A stretch of 24,514 bases of DNA from a virus: positions 1 through 24,514 of IMG/VR virus record IMGVR_UViG_3300047317_000082, one strand, 5' to 3'. The notes beneath the pieces are model-generated. The model worked only from the letters and a program-made list of their open reading frames with translations. It did no database searches and was not told where the DNA came from. The translations under genes were made by a program, and so were the position numbers. Positions 3,900 through 14,202 of this stretch are shown one piece after another. How positions within the stretch are numbered: position 1 is the stretch's first letter; every line of letters begins with the position of its first letter.

Positions 3900-4175
3900 A
3901 TGTACGAACAGATCATTCAGCTGGGTCTGATAAAAATAGCCATCATGTCGGCAGTCGCGCTTGTCTATGGCTTCTGCAAGGCAGCATGGGACTCCGGCGT
4001 CGTGCGCGACTCATTACTGATTCGCCGGCTGAAGAATGCCGCCCAGCAGCCCGTTGACGACGGCTGGACGACCGTAATTGAGGAGCCCGCGCACCGCCGG
4101 GCCTGGAAGCGCCTGACCGGACGACGCGGCAGCACGACTGTCGAGAAACGGCAGGAGCGCGTTCGGATCGAGTAG
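3900..4175 (+). CDS. Doubtful small membrane protein, antisense to late operon
   Basis: This plus-strand frame of 91 codons starts at an ATG 3 bases after a terminator hairpin, with GGGGAG of the hairpin 9 bases upstream. Residues about 5-28 form a good hydrophobic span (LIKIAIMSAVALVYGF), followed by a basic soluble tail. The span falls in the 117-base gap where no minus-strand gene exists, which argues for real coding. The rest overlaps the 3' end of the ejection-protein gene on the other strand and could be chance. No family is recognised. I keep it as a weak candidate only. Confidence 0.25.
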   Translation: MYEQIIQLGLIKIAIMSAVALVYGFCKAAWDSGVVRDSLLIRRLKNAAQQPVDDGWTTVIEEPAHRRAWKRLTGRRGSTTVEKRQERVRIE

Positions 4176-5951
4176 GTAGTTGCCGAGGTTACCTTGCAGC
4201 CTTGCACCGACTGACTGGCCGAGCTTGTTTGATGCGGCCAGAGCGCCGCCGGCGGCAAGCGGGTGACCGGCCAGAAGTGCGCCACCCGCGGCCACCGCTT
4301 TCCCGAGCCCTGTCGCACCCTGGAAATTCGGCCCATAGAGATTGCGTGCGAGCCAGCCATTGGCCGCGAGGTTGTACGCCGTGTCGCTGCCCGGCGTGCG
4401 CACCGAGTTCGAGATCGTCGCGCGCTGCAGATCCTGACCGATCCCCTGGAGCGTCCCATGCGCGTTGGCGTCGATGCCGTAAGTCGCCGCGTTCCCGCTG
4501 TTCATCGCCTTCGTCAGCGCCGCACGGTACGGCATCATCTGGATTTCCGGCGCACCGCCCGCGTTCATCGCGCGCGTGCCGAGCCCGTTGGCGATCTGCT
4601 GGCCGACTTCCATCGTATTCACCGGTACGCTGCCCGCCGCATAGGCCGCGTCTGCCTGCTGCACGCCGGGGATATAGGTCTGCGTCCAGCTATCGACGTT
4701 GTTTTTCAGTGCCGTGAGCGCGCCTGCTTTCGTATTCGCGCCCGCGCGCTGCGCTTCACTGATCATGTCGCCCAGCGCGCGCGACGTGTAATCCAGTGCG
4801 GCGCCGTTGATCGTCTTGGACTGAGGCGTCGGCCAGACTGGCGCGACGCCGCGGCCGGTTGCTGAATTCAGCGACGCAATCTGATTCGCCCGCTGCATCG
4901 CCTCCTGCATTTCCGGGATCTGCGCATAGCGCATGAAAGCGGGCCCGACGTTGGCAGTCGACTGATGAGCCGCATCGTAGAGCGGTTGCGCCGTGGCGGA
5001 ACGCGCCTGCGTCGCGGCATCGAGTGCGGTCTGATCCTGCGCCACGCCCATCAATGCCTGCCAGCGCGCATCGTTGTTGCCGATTGTGCGATTGAGCAGC
5101 GCCGTCCGGAAATCAGGGCTATCGTTCGCGAGCGCCTTCTCGGTCTGTACGAGCATCGGACTAGCACCGGCCTGCGCGGTCGTCGGCAGTGAGCCGGGCA
5201 CGAACTGCTGAGCACCGCGGATACTTTGTGCGACAGCTGCGGCGTCCTGCGGCGACATTGCGCCGGCGAGTCCATTCCCGACAAAGCGGCCCGGCTGAAC
5301 GACCGGCTGCGCAACGTTCCAGATTCCTCTCCCAATCGCAGTTGCGCCGCCGACCGCAGCGGGCGCAGCACCACCGAGAGCTGCGCCGAGACCCATCTGA
5401 GTCGCTTTCTGCGCAGCGAACGATTGACCGTTCGACGGATCGGCAGTCGGCATCATGCCCGCGCCGGCCGCGCCCTGAAGCGCCCCGAGGCCGATCTTTC
5501 CCGGCAGCGACAAGGCTGCATATTCCGGCCCCAGTGCGAGCGTCGGCGCTGTGCCGACGGCGTTGCCGGCGAGACGGGCCAGGTCGATCCCCGATCCACC
5601 GCTCGCCGCGCGCTGCTGCGCATACTGCTGATTCTGCGCGTCGATAGTCTGCTGGATCTGCGGAAGCGCGGCGCGCGCGTCCTTCGCGAACTGGGAGTCA
5701 GGCGCGATCTTGTTGGCCGCCCATGAGAGGCCGTGTGCGATGCCCTGCGCACCGCCGCGCACCGCATCGCCCATGCCCATCACGAAACCGCCTGGCGCGT
5801 TCCATGGGGAAGCCTGTGGCGCCGGCGCGGCGGACGACGTCGTAAGCGCGGGGCCAGCGCCGCCGGCATCCTGCGCGATCAGCGCATCAAGCGACGGCTG
5901 AGCATTGCCCGCGCCTGCGTCCTGCGCAATCAGACTGTCGAGCGCGCTCAT
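4014..5951 (-). CDS. Putative DNA-ejection (internal virion) protein
   Basis: This encodes 645 residues from the ATG at 5951, which overlaps the stop of the upstream gene (ATGA); the longer frame to 5978 has no support. The sequence is rich in Ala, Gly and Gln. The N-terminus holds a tandem motif, LDSLIAQDAG and LDALIAQDAG. Glycine- and alanine-rich hydrophobic stretches occur near residues 55-80, 145-210 and 540-580, and a helical middle lies in between. Proteins of this look, encoded last in the tail module of podoviruses, are usually packed in the virion and injected with the DNA, like P22 gp7, gp16 and gp20. No lytic or enzyme motif was seen. The assignment rests on position and composition. 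Confidence 0.6.
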   Translation of the reverse strand: MSALDSLIAQDAGAGNAQPSLDALIAQDAGGAGPALTTSSAAPAPQASPWNAPGGFVMGMGDAVRGGAQGIAHGLSWAANKIAPDSQFAKDARAALPQIQQTIDAQNQQYAQQRAASGGSGIDLARLAGNAVGTAPTLALGPEYAALSLPGKIGLGALQGAAGAGMMPTADPSNGQSFAAQKATQMGLGAALGGAAPAAVGGATAIGRGIWNVAQPVVQPGRFVGNGLAGAMSPQDAAAVAQSIRGAQQFVPGSLPTTAQAGASPMLVQTEKALANDSPDFRTALLNRTIGNNDARWQALMGVAQDQTALDAATQARSATAQPLYDAAHQSTANVGPAFMRYAQIPEMQEAMQRANQIASLNSATGRGVAPVWPTPQSKTINGAALDYTSRALGDMISEAQRAGANTKAGALTALKNNVDSWTQTYIPGVQQADAAYAAGSVPVNTMEVGQQIANGLGTRAMNAGGAPEIQMMPYRAALTKAMNSGNAATYGIDANAHGTLQGIGQDLQRATISNSVRTPGSDTAYNLAANGWLARNLYGPNFQGATGLGKAVAAGGALLAGHPLAAGGALAASNKLGQSVGARLQGNLGNYLLDPNALLPFLDSRAAASSGQALPGPAVRGLLNYGRPAVVNGLLGGILQPANQ

Positions 5952-7702
5952 TTCAACACTCCGTTCTGGACTGCCCACTCGAGACGCGATCGCATCTGCG
6001 GATTCTGCGCGGCCTGCTTCAGCGCCGCGGCGCGCGCGGGGCCGGCCGGCATCGTCAGCAACGGCATCATCGACGGCGAGACGTTCTGATCGAACTGGTT
6101 TTCAAGGTGTGTATAGGCCTTCGAGTCGCCAGCGTTATAAGCGGGCGTCAGGAAATTCGCCTTGAGTTGGCCCACCTTGACCTGATTAACCAGGGTGCCG
6201 ATGCCGTCCTTAATCGCAGACGCAGGCTTGCCGTAGTCCGGAACTGATTCGCCCGTGAGCGCGCGGCCCGCGTCGGTGCCGTTCGTGCCGTTCTGGTTGG
6301 CGAGTAGCGTGATCACGTTCGCGCGCTGCTTCTCATACTCGGCAGCGCTCGGATTAACCGGCGTGCTGAGTGTGCCTAGCGGGCCCGTCGACAGAACCGT
6401 TTTTCCAGCTGCAAGCTGCTGCATTTTCTGGAGCCCCTCCAGCGCGGCATTCGCCGTTGAGTTGGCAGATTGCAGCTTCGAATACGAGTCCTTCATCGTC
6501 TGCGCGGGCGCGGCCTGCGCGTCGTTAGCGTTCGCGACAGAGCCCATCGGAGGTGCGGCGTAGATAGCGCCGCCGCCAGCGGGAGCCGCGACGCCTCCAG
6601 GCATTCCGCCAGGAAGCGGGCCGCCCGGCAGCGGAACGGGCGAGCCGCCCTGCGCCGGCGCACCACCGAGGCCTGGCATCGTCGGGATCGGCGGCGGCTG
6701 ATTGCCAAAGCCGCCCTGCGTCGCCGCCTGCGTGCGGTTGGTGACCGGCAGAGGATTACCTTGTGCGTCGACGCCCGAGTACGGCAGTGCGCCACCCTCA
6801 CCGGCCGTCTTCGCGTATGCCATTCCGCCAGCCGCCGCCGCAGCCCCTCCAATGCCAATCTGGTAAGGCTGACCTGCCTGGTTATAGATCAGCGTGCCGT
6901 CCTGATTCGTCGCCCACATGGCGCCCGGCTGCGGAGCCGGCAGGTTGTAGCGTGTCACGCCGTCCGAGCCGGTCAGGGAGGCGCCCGGGCGCCCTGCCAC
7001 CGGCGCGATATATCCTTCTTTCTTGATGGCGGCTTTGAGTGCCTCCGTATATTCGGGAGAACCGGGCCGGTAACCTAGCGAGATGAGTTGCTTCTGAATG
7101 TCGGTCGGTTTGTACTGGTCCAGGATGGCCCCTGCCAGCGCGGGAGCTCGTTGTCCGAGGGCTAAAGCGAGCGCCGCCTGCTGTGGTGGAATGCCTCCGA
7201 ACATACCGCCTGATGCCTGAGGTGCAGGGGCCACAGACTGAGGCTGCGGCGCAGCGGCTACCGCACCGCCCTGAGGCGCGTCACCGACAGCCGGAACAGG
7301 CATCGAGATCGCGCCTTGGCCTGAATCGCTCGCGCCAGCCGGAACCCTGCCAGCATCCAGCACTGGAATACCGGTGGCACCCGATTGCGGCGCGGCCGGT
7401 TGACCCGCCGCGGCCTGCGATCCCTGCTGACCAGACAGTCCTCCACGAATGATGTCGTTCAGCAGGCCATTCTGGCTCGCCTGGTACTGAAGATTCTGCA
7501 ATTGGAGCGCCTTCGACACGCGATCGTATTGGTGGTCGTAAGCCGTTTGATACGCGCCCAGAGCGCCCCCAAGCCCTTGCGACAGCGCATAGCCGAGCGA
7601 AACCGGCATCCGGCTAGGTCCGCTTGCGGCCATCATGTTAGTGCCGGCACCGAGCAGCCCGATCGTGTTCGGGTCGTTCAGAATATTGTCGAGAATTCCC
7701 AT
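5948..7702 (-). CDS. Putative DNA-ejection (internal virion) protein
   Basis: This encodes 584 residues from the ATG at 7702, with AAGGAG well placed upstream. The N-terminus (MGILDNILNDPNTIGLLGAG) continues into a Gly/Ala segment typical of phage ejection proteins. A long central part (about 90-420) is Pro/Gly/Gln/Ala-rich and of low complexity, containing repeated runs of the type GGxPxPxPGG. The C-terminal 170 residues are ordinary helical protein. It lies between two similar proteins, forming a three-gene set as with the P22 ejection proteins. No enzymatic signature is visible. The role is inferred from gene order and composition; another virion role, such as tail interior, is possible. 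Confidence 0.6.
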   Translation of the reverse strand: MGILDNILNDPNTIGLLGAGTNMMAASGPSRMPVSLGYALSQGLGGALGAYQTAYDHQYDRVSKALQLQNLQYQASQNGLLNDIIRGGLSGQQGSQAAAGQPAAPQSGATGIPVLDAGRVPAGASDSGQGAISMPVPAVGDAPQGGAVAAAPQPQSVAPAPQASGGMFGGIPPQQAALALALGQRAPALAGAILDQYKPTDIQKQLISLGYRPGSPEYTEALKAAIKKEGYIAPVAGRPGASLTGSDGVTRYNLPAPQPGAMWATNQDGTLIYNQAGQPYQIGIGGAAAAAGGMAYAKTAGEGGALPYSGVDAQGNPLPVTNRTQAATQGGFGNQPPPIPTMPGLGGAPAQGGSPVPLPGGPLPGGMPGGVAAPAGGGAIYAAPPMGSVANANDAQAAPAQTMKDSYSKLQSANSTANAALEGLQKMQQLAAGKTVLSTGPLGTLSTPVNPSAAEYEKQRANVITLLANQNGTNGTDAGRALTGESVPDYGKPASAIKDGIGTLVNQVKVGQLKANFLTPAYNAGDSKAYTHLENQFDQNVSPSMMPLLTMPAGPARAAALKQAAQNPQMRSRLEWAVQNGVLK

Positions 7703-7711
7703 GTGAGCTCC

Positions 7712-9046
7712 TTAGCCGTAGTTGGCCGGGTTGTCGAAGCCCGAGTAGCTGCTTTGATAGGTGGGATTGAAGCCCGATGAACTCGACGAGCCCGCCGCAT
7801 TCTTGTACGCGTTGTAGAGCCCTAAGCCAGCAGTGGCGCCACCGACCGCGTTGCCGACCGGATTCGTGAAGTACGGCGTCGTTTGCGACGTCTGGCCGCC
7901 GAGCCCGGTGAACGGTGAAAGCTGGTTCGTGACCTGCTGCATCTGCCAGTACGGGTAGGCGTTCTGTGCGGTGCCGTAGTTGTAAATCTGGCCCGTCAGG
8001 TTGCCGATCTGGCTCATCGCGCCGAGTGCGTTCGAACTGTTCAGCGCGTTCGTCGACAGGTTCGATTGCAGGTTCGCCTGCCCCGCCTGCTGCGCCAATT
8101 GCGCATTCGTCAGCCCGGCTTGTTGCTGGAAACCTGCGTTCGTCGAGTTCGCCTGCTGCTGGTTTTGCAGGTTGGCGAGATTCATGCCCTGTTGCAGGTT
8201 GGCATTCTGTGACGCCGCGCCGTATTGCTGGTTCGACAGATTGTTGAGCGCCGACAGTGCGTTCGACTGGCCCTGCATATAGGTGTTGGCCTGGGCATTG
8301 GCGGCCGCATCCTGATTGTTCATGCCCATCTGCGACCCGGCTTGCGCGAGTGCCGTGCCGTACTGGCCAATGGCATTGCCTTGCGCGATACCCTGCCGCG
8401 ATCCACCATATCCGCCGGCGGCCACCGCCCCCGAATTGATCGCCGGCAACACGTTCTGCGTCAGGTTACGCGTCGCGTTGGTCATCGAATTGCTGTACGC
8501 ATCGTTCGCCTGATTGATACCCTGCTGGATCTGGCCGGTCAGGTATGGGTTATTGCCTGACGCACCGCTCAGCATGTTCTGGTAGGTCGGCGCGAGATTC
8601 ACCCCGTTCTGACTCGGCGCATTGATCTGCGCGGCGTTGCCCTGCGCCGCATTCATCCCGGCCGCCTGCATCGACGCATTGCTCATCGTCGGCGTCTGCT
8701 GGCTCCAGCCGAGCATGCCATTCGCGGTGTTCAGCGCGTTCCCAATTTGGCCCAGGGGCGCGCCAGAACCGAGATATGAATTCGCGTCGTTGCCGAACTG
8801 CGCGAGGCCCGCGTTCTGCGGCTGATATTCGAGGTGCCGAATGTCTTCGATGTAACCCGGGTCCTGCTGCCCTGTGTTCGGGTTGATGCCGCCGAACAGC
8901 AGGCCATTCATGTGCGGGTTGATGGTCTGCGTCTGCGTACTCGTCGTCGAACCACTCGGGCTTCCGCCGCTCTGCGAAGCGGCATATGCACTCGCCCCCG
9001 CAGCGGCGAGGCCCGCAATTGCGCCAGCAGAAATTCCTCCGCTCAT
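7712..9046 (-). CDS. Putative DNA-ejection protein, Asn/Gln-rich
   Basis: This encodes 444 residues; its ATG overlaps the stop of the cupin-SET gene (ATGA). A short Ala/Gly hydrophobic segment at about 4-24 could insert in a membrane. The centre (about 120-340) is extraordinarily rich in Asn, Gln and Ala with degenerate repeats such as NLQNQQQAN and AQLAQQAGQANLQ, predicting long polar helices. The C-terminus is Ser/Tyr/Gly-rich. Such Gln/Asn-rich helical proteins with a hydrophobic N-terminus are commonly internal head proteins ejected with DNA. It is the first of three such genes. Function is inferred, not shown by motif. Confidence 0.6.
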   Translation of the reverse strand: MSGGISAGAIAGLAAAGASAYAASQSGGSPSGSTTSTQTQTINPHMNGLLFGGINPNTGQQDPGYIEDIRHLEYQPQNAGLAQFGNDANSYLGSGAPLGQIGNALNTANGMLGWSQQTPTMSNASMQAAGMNAAQGNAAQINAPSQNGVNLAPTYQNMLSGASGNNPYLTGQIQQGINQANDAYSNSMTNATRNLTQNVLPAINSGAVAAGGYGGSRQGIAQGNAIGQYGTALAQAGSQMGMNNQDAAANAQANTYMQGQSNALSALNNLSNQQYGAASQNANLQQGMNLANLQNQQQANSTNAGFQQQAGLTNAQLAQQAGQANLQSNLSTNALNSSNALGAMSQIGNLTGQIYNYGTAQNAYPYWQMQQVTNQLSPFTGLGGQTSQTTPYFTNPVGNAVGGATAGLGLYNAYKNAAGSSSSSGFNPTYQSSYSGFDNPANYG

Positions 9047-9939
9047 CGTTTTTCTCCCAATGGCTTGAACCCGGCACCGTTGACGCTCATGGCCTGTCGG
9101 TAATCAATCGTCACTTCGTCGCCCCTTCTGATTGGCTCAATGGCGTACAACATGAGATCGCCATTGGGCATCGGTGAAAACATCGAATTTGGTTTGCGGG
9201 AGTGGTTGATATGACGGCCGGCCGGCGTGCGCTTATCGCCAAGGCGCGCTGGCGCGATCAATTCGCCGTCTGCAATGTCGTGCATCGCGAACATGCCACG
9301 GCCTTCGATTGGCGACTCGCGCAGCTCGAGCGAACGGATCGCCGCCGGCATTGGAATCTGATCGGCCGTGTTTTCAACGAGGCGCGTCACGAAGTCTTGA
9401 GTGAGCCCGTACTCGGCGAGGAAGCGCGTGTAATCGGCGCGGTCTTCGGCCGCCCGATTCATCGCCTGCTGCACGTTGCGGCTGCCGCCCATCAGCGCCG
9501 CGGGGTCGTCTTCGATGATTTCCGCCATCACCTTGTCGAGGTCTCGCTCGTTCGTCGGATTCGGGTGATAGGTCGTCCAGATCGTTTCCTCGATGGCATA
9601 GCCGACGCGCTTCGCGCCGGGCGCCGAGACGATCGTTGCGCCAGCGCATAGCTCTTTCATGCCCTCATCCGTCGACACCGCAATGCGGCCCTTGGAAACC
9701 GTGCACAGGTGTTCATGGCGATGTACGGCGCCGGTCAGCACCACGCCCGCCGGAATGGTCATCTCTCGCGCATAGATGCCGGGAGCGAACCAGTGCCGAA
9801 CCGGGCAATCGACCTGCGGCAGCTTGTTTAGCTCGCCCTCAAGTCGATAGACGTCCTCGCGGGTGATCTGCTTCGCGGGAAGCGCCAGCGCGCGCGGCAC
9901 GACGGCATAGGACGATTTCGGCGTGTAGTCAGTGCTCAT
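9043..9939 (-). CDS. Cupin-SET fusion, predicted protein-lysine methyltransferase
   Basis: This encodes 298 residues from the ATG at 9939, overlapping the upstream stop (ATGA). The N-terminal half (about 45-145) is a cupin-like beta-barrel: HWFAPGIYAREMTIPAG, then GAVHRHEHLCTVSKG with His73, His75 and His77 as possible metal ligands, then PGAKRVGYAIEETIW. Single-domain cupins with these motifs occur in phage virion operons. After a helical linker the C-terminal part (about 205-282) is a SET domain: GRGMFA (213-218, cofactor loop), HINHSRKPN (243-251, the Asn-His-Ser pseudoknot) and GDEVTIDY (273-280) with the catalytic Tyr280. SET domains transfer methyl from S-adenosylmethionine to protein lysines. 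There are no post-SET cysteines. It sits between the tail-hub and ejection genes; the substrate is unknown, possibly a virion or host protein. Confidence 0.85.
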   Translation of the reverse strand: MSTDYTPKSSYAVVPRALALPAKQITREDVYRLEGELNKLPQVDCPVRHWFAPGIYAREMTIPAGVVLTGAVHRHEHLCTVSKGRIAVSTDEGMKELCAGATIVSAPGAKRVGYAIEETIWTTYHPNPTNERDLDKVMAEIIEDDPAALMGGSRNVQQAMNRAAEDRADYTRFLAEYGLTQDFVTRLVENTADQIPMPAAIRSLELRESPIEGRGMFAMHDIADGELIAPARLGDKRTPAGRHINHSRKPNSMFSPMPNGDLMLYAIEPIRRGDEVTIDYRQAMSVNGAGFKPLGEKR

Positions 9940-10184
9940 GCGATCTTCACCCATGCGTTGGAACGGTATTGATAGAGCGCGGCTGCAGTCGTCGGCGCAG
10001 TGACGTTGGCCGCGAAATAGACGGTGTCGCCCTCGCGCGGCTTCTTGGGCAGCGCGGCCTGCTGCTCATAGCGAACGGCCGGCGACTGCGCGGCGAGCGT
10101 GAGCGCGATCTTCTGGAATTCGGATTGCAGATAGCTCGGCATCTGCGTCGGATCGGATGGCGGCTGAGCGGGGATATAGGCCAT
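9936..10184 (-). CDS. Small conserved phage protein of the tail module
   Basis: This encodes 82 residues beginning MAYIPAQPPSDPTQMPSYLQ. The start is the ATG at 10184, overlapping the stop of the tail-hub gene (TGATG). The pattern is a proline-rich start, a short helix (SEFQKIALTLAAQSP), then PKKPREGDTVYFAA and a closing YRSNAWVKI. It resembles, by recall, a short protein found beside tail genes in many phages; its C-terminal half may be a small beta fold. Function unknown, probably virion-associated. It is sandwiched by overlaps between the hub and the cupin-SET gene. Confidence 0.7.
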   Translation of the reverse strand: MAYIPAQPPSDPTQMPSYLQSEFQKIALTLAAQSPAVRYEQQAALPKKPREGDTVYFAANVTAPTTAAALYQYRSNAWVKIA

Positions 10185-11749
10185 CAGTACATCCCCATCA
10201 TCTGGGCGTTGACCGTGAACTGCTTCACGCGCCACGTGCAGATGGTCGTCGTCTCAAACTTCACGCCCACATAGCGCGCGGCCGGCGCAGACATCGTGTC
10301 GACCTTGAGTGACGTGCCGACCGTGAACGGGAAAGGCCCGGTCCATGCGATCGGCGCTTCGGCGTCCGTCTGCCCACCGACATAGACGTTCACCACGGTC
10401 CCGGCCGGCGCGTCGATGATCGGCCGTACTTCCTTGACCAGCTTCATCCGCTCCGGCGCGTCAAACGTGATGCCGGTCTTTTCGCAATTCGCCGTCATCG
10501 TGGCCGCGCCGAAGGTCTCGCCCACGTCTGCCAGATAGATGAGGTTGTCGTTGGCCGACGCCATTACGAGCCGCGGCGTCGCCTGCGTGTATTCGTTTTG
10601 GCCCCACGCCTTCGTTTCTAGGTTCCACGGCGTGGTTTGGACCTGCCATGAATTGCCCTGGGCGTAGACGATTACGCCGGAATTCGCGTGCGAGACGTTC
10701 GGCAGATCGCGCGTGCCCCATGTGTTGGATTTCCAGTTCCAGACCATCGCCATGTTCGGCCACGTCGCGCCGATCTTCGGCACGCAGAACCAGATCTCAT
10801 TGCGGCGCAGGTTGGCGACCGCGAACGAGTTTCCGTAGTTGGTCGAGTCGATCGAGTTGAACAGGTACTTGCGCACCCGCGCGTCGGCGATGGAAGTCAC
10901 GTTGCCGGCGGCGTCTACGACGACGACGTCACCCTGCGTGAGCACCGCATGGCCGCCCGGGAATTCAACCGCGCAGTTCTGCGCGAGCGCGCCGGCCTGC
11001 TTCGACACGGGCATGAAGTTGAAGATGTACGGCTGGCCGGAATACTGCGCGAGCCACGTCGAACCTTCCTTGTAGACGATGAAGTTCTGGCCGAGCGACA
11101 GGCCGTCTACGATCACATCGGGCGTGTCGGCGAGATCGACCTGACCAGCGTCGTGCGTCGCGTCAGTTGGGTCCCACGTCACCGGCACAGTGCCCGGGTC
11201 GGCCTCATGCGACCACTTGACCATGGTCGGATAGTTCGAGCCATTGTTCGTGACGTTGAGCGCCATCAGGAAGTTGCGGAACGGGCGAAGCACCTTGCAC
11301 GTGTAGCCGGCCGGCCACGCAGTCAGGTTCGCCATCGGCGTCGACGGGTTACCGCCCCAGAACTGAGGCACGTCCACGCCGTTATTCAGGAACAGGACGC
11401 CGGTCAGGACGCCACCATTCCATTTGTTGGCCGTCGTGCCGGTGTAATTGACATCGGCCCCCGCGCTCTGCCGCGTGATGTCCGTATGCGTTGTGTTCTG
11501 GACCGCGTAGACCTTCTGGAGGCCGCAATACACCCAATAGCGACCCGAGACGCCGTTCGTCGGGAACACGGCATAGGGCGGGACCTGCGGCACACCGTAG
11601 ATCGCTGCGTGGCCCTGTATCTTCTCTGCGTAGCCATCACGAAAGCGCAGGTTGCGGCCGTTGGTCCATTCGCTCGGCTGCGTGTCGGGCGCATAGACAT
11701 CGCGGTTCAGGCCCACCGAGCCCATATCCTTGAATGGCGCGAGCGGCAT
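10184..11749 (-). CDS. Tail hub / packaged-DNA stabilisation protein (P22 gp10-like)
   Basis: This encodes 521 residues from the ATG at 11749 (MPLAPFKDMGSVGLNRDVYA), which overlaps the upstream stop (TGATG). The sequence is almost wholly beta, with many Trp, Tyr and Gly and repeated turns such as NKWNGGVLTGVLFLNNG and NLRRNEIWFCVPK. This fits the beta-propeller-like DNA stabilisation proteins that plug the head after packaging and attach the tail needle in podoviruses. The start region, with PSEWTNGRNLRFRDG, is characteristic of this group in my memory. It supports a short-tailed virion together with the P22-like portal. Similarity is recalled, not computed. Confidence 0.72.
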   Translation of the reverse strand: MPLAPFKDMGSVGLNRDVYAPDTQPSEWTNGRNLRFRDGYAEKIQGHAAIYGVPQVPPYAVFPTNGVSGRYWVYCGLQKVYAVQNTTHTDITRQSAGADVNYTGTTANKWNGGVLTGVLFLNNGVDVPQFWGGNPSTPMANLTAWPAGYTCKVLRPFRNFLMALNVTNNGSNYPTMVKWSHEADPGTVPVTWDPTDATHDAGQVDLADTPDVIVDGLSLGQNFIVYKEGSTWLAQYSGQPYIFNFMPVSKQAGALAQNCAVEFPGGHAVLTQGDVVVVDAAGNVTSIADARVRKYLFNSIDSTNYGNSFAVANLRRNEIWFCVPKIGATWPNMAMVWNWKSNTWGTRDLPNVSHANSGVIVYAQGNSWQVQTTPWNLETKAWGQNEYTQATPRLVMASANDNLIYLADVGETFGAATMTANCEKTGITFDAPERMKLVKEVRPIIDAPAGTVVNVYVGGQTDAEAPIAWTGPFPFTVGTSLKVDTMSAPAARYVGVKFETTTICTWRVKQFTVNAQMMGMY

Positions 11750-12406: not shown

Positions 12407-13342
12407 TTACCACCAGTAGACTCGGACTTCACCGCGGCCACCGCTGCCGCCGGCCGCACCGCTTGAGGAACCCGCTCCAGCGCCACCGCCGCCGCAGCCT
12501 GGGATGCCGCCATTCCCACCAGCGCCCCCGGCACCTGAATTGCCGTACCCACCGCCGCCGCCTCCTTGCGCTCCAAGGAGAGTGTTCGGATTAGCATTCG
12601 CACCATTGGCTCCCGGGCTCCCTGTTGTCCCTGTCGCGCCACCGGTACCCCCTCCGCCAGGCGTGTACGAGCCCGTGATCCCACCATTAGTGCCGATCGT
12701 TTGCGAGCCATACCCGCCAGCGCCCCCGCCAGCTCCGCCCCATAAGGACGAGCCGCCGTGTGCAGTGCTTGTCGAGAAATTTCCGCCGCCAGCTCCGCCC
12801 CATTCGGCGTTGCCACCTTGGCTGGCGTTTTGCACCCCGCCGGCGCCCGCAGTGCCGAGCACATTGGTATTGGTATTGTTGAAGCCCGCAGTGTTGGCGT
12901 TATACGCTGGCCCCCCGCCGTTGCTGCTCGTTTGTCCCGCGCTCGCGGAGCCGCCGCCGCCCGCGCCAAAGTTGCCGCTACCGGAGCCGCCGCCACCACC
13001 TCCATAAGCCGTCACGAAGTTGCCGAAGCTGGAATTTCCGCCGCCATTGCCGGCATTTCCTCCAACTGCGCCTCCTGCGCCGCCAGCGCCAACGATCACT
13101 TGAACCGGAGCAGTAATGCGCGAGGCGGGGATGAGCATTGGCACGCGTGCGCCGCCACCGCCAGCAAGCCCCATATTGGGGGTCGCCGCAGACCCACCCC
13201 CTCCACCACCGCCCGCGACGGGATCAATGAAGTAGAACGATGCGCCCGGTTGTGGGTTGAACATGCCGCTCGACGCGAAAATCTGCGACTTCGCATAGGG
13301 CGGCACGATCCCATCGGGAAATCCGAAAAGGCCCGCGTTCAT
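12407..13342 (-). CDS. Glycine-rich virion protein, possible receptor adhesin
   Basis: This encodes 311 residues from the ATG at 13342, overlapping the upstream stop (TGATG); upstream in-frame codons to 13744 belong to the preceding gene's region and are rejected. After about 45 ordinary residues the protein is dominated by glycine, with runs such as AGGGGGGGS, VGAGGAGGAVGGNAGNGGG and GAGGAGGNGGIPGCGGGG, interspersed with Ser, Asn, Ala and a few aromatic residues. The segment APVQVIVGAGGAGG fits glycine-rich phage tail proteins (the Gly_rich_2 type). Comparable polyglycine proteins in other phages form helix bundles at fibre tips that contact the receptor. WGGAGGG occurs twice, 20 residues apart, coded by an identical 17-bp DNA repeat. 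It probably sets host range. Confidence 0.72.
   Translation of the reverse strand: MNAGLFGFPDGIVPPYAKSQIFASSGMFNPQPGASFYFIDPVAGGGGGGGSAATPNMGLAGGGGARVPMLIPASRITAPVQVIVGAGGAGGAVGGNAGNGGGNSSFGNFVTAYGGGGGGSGSGNFGAGGGGSASAGQTSSNGGGPAYNANTAGFNNTNTNVLGTAGAGGVQNASQGGNAEWGGAGGGNFSTSTAHGGSSLWGGAGGGAGGYGSQTIGTNGGITGSYTPGGGGTGGATGTTGSPGANGANANPNTLLGAQGGGGGGYGNSGAGGAGGNGGIPGCGGGGAGAGSSSGAAGGSGGRGEVRVYWW
12727..12803 (-). repeat. 17-bp direct repeat, 60-bp period, in the glycine-rich gene
   Basis: CGCCAGCTCCGCCCCAT is found at 12727-12743 and at 12787-12803, exactly 60 bases apart and in frame. It encodes the WGGAGGG motif twice and could mediate repeat-length change by slippage or recombination. Confidence 0.7.
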
Positions 13343-14202
13343 CAGAAGTCCCCGCCGAACGCCGTGACGTTGATGCCACTGGAAGTCTGTGTGTCGTTGA
13401 CCGTTGCGCGCAGCGACCAGCCGGCCGGGAGAATGAGAGGCATACGCTGCGGCTGCAACGACAGAGACAGGTCGGCGGAAAACACCTGCACGGTATTCGA
13501 GGTCGTGAGCGCTTCGCTCGCAACGGTCTGGGACGCCGACACCGTATAGGTGCCAGTGCCTCCACTGCCGGTCCCGAGGGCTATGATGGTCGTGCCGGCC
13601 GTCACGCCGACACCATTTACTGTCTGGCCGATCTGGATCGCACCCGAGGCCAAGGCAGATACGGTGAGCGTCTGGCCACTGATCGACCCGGTAAAGCTCG
13701 CGCTGCCCAGGGGCGTCACCGTCGACACTGCAAGCTCCTGCCACAGAACCGACGTTGGCGCGGCTGGCGTAGATGCGAAATAGCCGACAGATGTCGCATT
13801 TACAGTCGGCGTCGACCCCATCGAGTAGGTGAACGCCGTCGTACTCGTGACGGTAATAGTCGTGTTCGTGACGTTGTAGGCACTCGGCGCGGCGCCTTGA
13901 ATCGTAACGAGTGCGCCAGTCGAAAGGCCGTGGGCCGTCGCAGTCGTCACCGTTGCGGTAGTGCCAGAAAAGGTGATGCCGCTGATCGCAGGCCCTACCA
14001 GTCCAGGGACCAGAAAGAGGCGCAGCATCGAAGCGAGTGTGGCGCCAATCCCTGCGGCGTTGATACGATCGATCCGTGAGCCGTTCACGCCTGCGGTGAA
14101 GACCGGAACGACATTAGTCGGCGCAGTGCGCGACGTGTCGCCAGTCGTAACGGTGCCCGTCCCGACCTTGGGAATGGTCGCGTATTGTGCTTGGGTGGTC
14201 AT
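13342..14202 (-). CDS. Phage virion/tail protein with beta-sandwich modules
   Basis: This encodes 286 residues from the ATG at 14202, directly after the stop of the upstream gene. The N-terminal 65 residues include [20 protein letters not shown] and [19 protein letters not shown], a pattern shared by phage virion proteins. Residues about 73-130 form a module, [20 protein letters not shown] followed by [12 protein letters not shown], like the short beta domains (E1_FCCH-type) used in tail proteins. A second module at about 165-225 ([13 protein letters not shown], then [12 protein letters not shown]) is another common tail building block. The C-terminus is [20 protein letters not shown]. It is probably a tail or head-surface component; no catalytic motif was seen. 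Confidence 0.6.

Follow-up and report, generated by a model that had tools for sequence, protein, structure and literature searches.

Why would a bacterial virus, which has no histones, encode a SET domain, and why within a gene of its virion operon? The question is raised by a metagenome-derived viral fragment of 24,514 nt (IMG/VR record IMGVR_UViG_3300047317_000082, analysed over its whole length and hereafter called the window), in which one protein joins a cupin domain to a C-terminal SET domain. The computed comparisons establish the fusion itself, the folds of both halves, the conservation of S-adenosylmethionine-binding and catalytic motifs, the loss of the SET-I insert, purifying selection, a defined operon slot and a patchy presence among relatives. 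On balance, we favour the view that we are dealing with a structural cupin from the tail/ejection module of short-tailed phages, anchored to the particle and carrying an optional, minimal SET lysine methyltransferase at its C-terminus.

A cupin fused to a minimal SET domain

The initial annotation had placed the fusion at 9043-9939, and these limits hold; the open reading frame is read on the minus strand, with its ATG at 9939 and its stop at 9043 (an alternative in-frame ATG at 9954 would add five residues). The SET domain is recognized by sequence, since Pfam PF00856 matches it with E=2.4e-10 and 41.2 bits, well above the curated cut-off of 22.4, and 54/57 family members match the same profile at E<=0.01. 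A search of NCBIfam gave no match. The predicted cupin leaves only a trace in Pfam (Cupin_2, E=0.16), and its identification comes instead from PHROG 12032, a family named 'short tail fiber protein' that matches residues 25-167 with E=2e-57, and from structural comparison. A full-length AlphaFold2 (AF2) model, built from 52 sequences, reached a mean per-residue confidence (pLDDT) of 87.8 and values of 95-98 over most of the SET region; its global score (pTM) was low, at 0.58, and the relative placement of cupin and SET is not fixed. Foldseek returned RmlC-like cupins (e.g. 3fjs) as best matches for the first half, whose double-stranded beta-helix is apparent in the model, and MLL1 and vSET for the second. 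For a model of the SET domain alone (pLDDT 85, core above 90, low only at the ends), all top 50 matches in the PDB were SET methyltransferases, with TM scores of 0.58-0.69 on the query, and by these matches the predicted structure has a SET fold.

The GxG, NHS and GDEVTIDY motifs that had been read from the window protein are intact (GRG at 213-215, INHS at 244-247 and GDEVTIDY at 273-280) and are conserved over 60 fusions, which are less than 85% identical to each other and extend down to ~30% identity. In this set S209, G213, G215, E275 and Y280 are invariant, and R237, G241, R242, N245, H246 and N251 nearly so, the R-T-x-x-G-R portion of the R237-S247 stretch being a signature of the family. 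Some loci were found by a pattern overlapping E275-Y280, and conservation there is partly selected; the other motifs played no part in the alignment searches. Along with GxG, the family contains [RF]xNHxxxPN and ExxxDY, the motifs from which the cofactor and catalytic site is formed.

What the domain lacks is the SET-I insert: G215 and N245 are separated by exactly 29 residues in 57/57 sequences, compared with a GxG-NHS spacing of 64 in MLL1 and of 60 and 63 in two free SET proteins of bacterial contigs. In known SET enzymes, this insert forms one wall of the substrate groove. No post-SET follows the domain, and post-SET cysteines are absent. With SET-I missing, the substrate groove must lie open unless the cupin, the linker or another subunit closes it. 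In 45/57 fused relatives, though not in the window clade, the ExxxDY motif is preceded by six additional residues, often GCxGG; this insertion may make up for the loss of SET-I or post-SET.

Selection was estimated from near pairs, leaving out those with saturated synonymous divergence (dS). The ratio of nonsynonymous to synonymous divergence (dN/dS) was 0.015-0.27 for SET and 0.016-0.16 for the cupin (0.16 and 0.06, respectively, between the window and L001, its full-length relative), values that indicate purifying selection on the SET domain. The linker (residues 146-199) is the fastest evolving part of the fusion in several pairs. Since the cofactor and catalytic residues vary little or not at all, and since purifying selection maintains the domain, an active enzyme is likely. 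We regard the family as SET-fold proteins and likely enzymes, not as canonical SET methyltransferases.

An optional domain in a conserved virion slot

The operon runs from the small and large terminases, portal, scaffold, capsid protein, SU10-type adaptor and tail proteins to the hub, the 84-aa gene, the cupin-SET gene, the genes for the 444-, 584- and 654-aa proteins, the endolysin and the integrase (Table 1). ATGA overlaps tie the fusion gene to both its neighbours, as the initial annotation had described, and the gene order of relatives confirms a conserved position between the gp10-like hub and the ejection genes: the succession of hub, small gene(s), cupin(-SET) and first ejection-type protein is common to most loci, and the neighbouring proteins form a mosaic in otherwise diverse phages. 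Judging by its genes, the window phage is temperate and of a short-tailed type. Its host is likely a member of the Burkholderiaceae, because the closest chromosomal fusions are in Paraburkholderia (67% and 61% identity). At 12407-14202 on the minus strand, a Gly-rich fibre-like protein of 383 aa and a virion protein of 286 aa overlap in different frames, with one lysine each.

Table 1. Coordinates of the cupin-SET gene, its domains and motifs, and the neighbouring genes in the window
Feature	Coordinates	Strand	Evidence
Cupin-SET fusion gene, 298 aa	9043..9939	-	PHROG 34170 full-length, E=2.8e-59; full-length relative L001 79% identical
Cupin (double-stranded beta-helix) domain, residues 28-145	9505..9858	-	AF2 model and Foldseek matches to RmlC-like cupins; PHROG 12032
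Helical linker, residues 146-199	9343..9504	-	AF2 model
SET domain without SET-I insert, residues 203-286	9082..9333	-	Pfam SET; matches of SET-only model
GxG cofactor motif, G213-R-G215	9295..9303	-	Invariant, 60/60 fusions
R237-T-P-A-G-R-H-I-N245-H246-S motif	9199..9231	-	R237, G241, R242 and N245 59/60; H246 58/60
GDEVTIDY (273-280), catalytic-type tyrosine Y280	9100..9123	-	E275 and Y280 60/60
84-aa gene, directly upstream, ATGA overlap	9936..10190	-	PHROG 8092, E=7e-5
516-aa virion structural protein, hub/gp10-like slot	10184..11734	-	PHROG 3287, E=1e-115; Rhodoferax phage gene of this slot carries an annotation of similarity to P22 gp10
444-aa A/Q/N/G-rich protein with one lysine, first ejection-gene slot, ATGA overlap	7712..9046	-	
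584-aa protein, second of ejection-type block	5948..7702	-	Position only; no family match
654-aa protein, third of ejection-type block	4014..5978	-	PHROG 5880, unknown function

The fusion is widespread. An alignment search of IMG/VR yielded at least 354 relatives among 600 candidate stretches, and GTDB genomes added about a dozen further fusions. Fused forms occur in the phage isolates Rhodoferax phage P26218 and Pseudoalteromonas phage PH1 and in Paraburkholderia chromosomes, and further phage records with family members include zth2-2 and metagenomic podoviruses. One contig (C12) of the Paraburkholderia metagenome-assembled genome G002 holds two different fusions (L091/L201 and L098/L217) 83 kb apart, probably in two prophages. 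Two records, MW202557 and MW202744 (L004, L006), carry misleading annotations: a 'contryphan-vn-tryptophan' is called on the strand opposite the fusion, and a 'putative terL' lies inside the ejection-protein block.

Both states that the initial annotation had thought worth comparing exist, 101 of 191 cupin genes examined being fused to SET and 90 being cupin-only. No free SET gene was found within 6-7 kb of these 191 genes, where SET occurs only as a cupin fusion, and free SET genes in neighbouring loci were rejected as the source of the domain. On a weakly resolved cupin tree the fused/cupin-only label changes at least seven times (starred branches alone force two); the cupin-only L173 is sister to the window's fused clade with a support of 88, and the cupin-only L186 has homologues of the window hub and 444-aa genes. 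On account of these switches and of the two cupin-only loci just named, the SET domain is an optional accessory, open to both gain and loss. When the window is compared with L001, identity is 92% for the cupin, 93% for the hub and 85% for the 444-aa protein, with SET at only 65%, and dS is also higher in SET (9082-9333) than in the cupin, which suggests that the SET cassette was exchanged or has changed faster. Among neighbour clusters, no partner gene clearly tracks the SET domain, the large clusters occurring with both states, and PADLOC gave no match to known defence systems.

Candidate substrates and rival explanations

The Lys-poor ejection proteins encoded downstream had been proposed as possible targets, and comparison did not support this suggestion. 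The 444-aa protein has a single lysine, differently placed in the window and in L001 (K415 vs K28). In Burkholderiales relatives (window 7712-9046; L013, L014, L090) the protein of this slot has 0-1 lysine in 261-448 aa, and it is lysine-free in the fused L013 and L014; its homologue in the cupin-only L186 has 12 lysines. Lysine exceeds 30% of sequences in no column of the slot (+1) family alignment; after correction for GC, the lysine content of the slot protein is no different in fused and cupin-only phages (-0.26 +/- 0.26 percentage points). We therefore reject these proteins as an obligatory target. Auto-methylation at a conserved lysine was rejected as well, since none is invariant in 57 sequences of the fusion and the best column, position 111 (K in 47/57, R in 9), is R in the window. 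No phage substrate is singled out, and a host protein or a lysine of the capsid, portal or hub is possible. As neither a partner protein nor a lysine follows the presence of the SET domain, we lean somewhat towards a host protein, encountered upon infection or later, as the target, over a fixed phage neighbour.

In the explanation we favour, the cupin would anchor the SET enzyme to the particle, and SET would use S-adenosylmethionine to methylate one or more lysines of a protein met through the particle. Synteny and the database names of cupin-only relatives make a location in the particle plausible, and both sequence family and operon slot agree with a tail/virion protein of podoviruses of the PHROG 12032 type. 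Several points weigh on the other side. Virion proteomics of a family member was searched for and none was found; the label 'short tail fiber' comes from transfer between database entries; an external tail protein would have no obvious route to the cytoplasm, the site of S-adenosylmethionine; and SET-I and post-SET, usual though not universal elements that shape the substrate channel of known enzymes, are both missing. The loss of SET-I also lends itself to a reading in which the domain no longer methylates and serves as a beta-clip structural or S-adenosylmethionine-binding module of the tail protein. Beta-clip folds occur also in purely structural phage proteins, and one family member matches the related SAF fold in Pfam. 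We nevertheless consider such a loss of activity unlikely, as it is precisely the cofactor and catalytic residues that are invariant over 60 sequences as divergent as these.

A better case can be made for an enzyme that modifies virion proteins (the capsid, portal or hub, or its own cupin) while still inside the cell that makes the phage, tuning assembly or stability with no delivery involved. The position in a late virion operon fits this explanation, as do the 15-34 lysines in each of capsid, portal and hub and the known lysine methylation of phage structural proteins (PMC13288928). It has to contend with a SET domain that sits among diverse, mosaic neighbours and with the lack of a conserved lysine in the +1 family and in the fusion itself, and we hold it possible, at well below even odds. 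That JmjC lysine demethylases are built on a cupin fold, as cited in PMC13288928, invites the idea of a writer-eraser pair, in which the cupin would remove what SET adds. Metal-binding motifs 1 and 2, which many but not all cupins have, are incomplete here: almost every family member has Y, F or L at the histidine position of motif 2, and motif 1 is variable; position 73 is Q in 30/57, and position 71 is A in the window. With this incomplete metal site we rejected a JmjC-type identity, and, as cupin-only relatives also occupy the same structural slot, a writer-eraser pair is very improbable. The window being a metagenome-derived fragment, an assembly or annotation artefact joining two genes might be suspected; sequenced isolates and numerous contigs of independent origin have the same fusion, which refutes it and leaves it next to no credence.

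Known relatives and significance

The window protein matches over its full length PHROG 34170, a 296-aa family of unknown function, and gp30 of Rhodoferax phage P26218 has the same cupin-linker-SET layout in the same operon slot. Database names of family records include 'hypothetical protein' and 'pbcV-1 histone H3-lys 27 methyltransferase structure'. In the openly available literature we found no publication describing the cupin-SET family; databases already contain it, unnamed or mis-named. A SET protein of unknown context is listed in Stenotrophomonas phage Ps15 (PMC9025141). The cupin domain alone, without SET, is found in proteins called 'short tail fiber' or 'tail fiber adhesin' (PHROG 12032, 24280), such as Bbp23 of Bordetella phage BPP-1 and a protein of Variovorax phage VAC_51, whose gene occupies the same slot ahead of internal virion proteins; a sequence search for a solved structure of this cupin-only family gave none that was convincing.

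The best PDB sequence match of the SET domain is MLL1/KMT2A (E=1.7e-11 with the family profile), whose GxG, RFINHS and ELTxDY motifs align with those of the family; MLL1 differs in its 64 residues between GxG and NHS, against 29, and the family has no post-SET. Another small viral SET, vSET (A612L) of chlorovirus PBCV-1, is 25% identical (PDB 3kma; TM ~0.65 with the SET-only model). At 119 aa, vSET has been called the smallest histone methyltransferase, and it is packaged in the PBCV-1 virion (PMC7019647). It is a stand-alone enzyme that acts on a eukaryotic histone, whereas the window SET is fused to a cupin, and at ~84 aa the SET domain of the window family is shorter. BFVD contains other viral SET proteins of ~100 aa, and small size alone is not unique.

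In its broadest form, the proposal would be that widespread short-tailed phages carry a particle-borne lysine methyltransferase, the smallest SET known, which methylates host proteins as infection starts and is a bacterial counterpart of packaged vSET; we advance this tentatively and think it rather doubtful as a whole. If it were true, the family would be a writer of lysine methylation encoded as part of a virion gene, common among environmental phages and also found in isolates. A report of 2026 described lysine methylation of phage virion proteins and an early rise of host methylation in infected Cellulophaga, a system for which no phage methyltransferase is known (PMC13288928); the cupin-SET family would be such a phage-encoded writer, and one point mutation would directly test the role of methylation in infection. 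If active, the domain would be among the smallest SET enzymes, and SET-I would then be dispensable or supplied from elsewhere. Fusions of this kind are encoded in hundreds of phage sequences from the environment, and phages may therefore bring their own protein-methylating enzyme.
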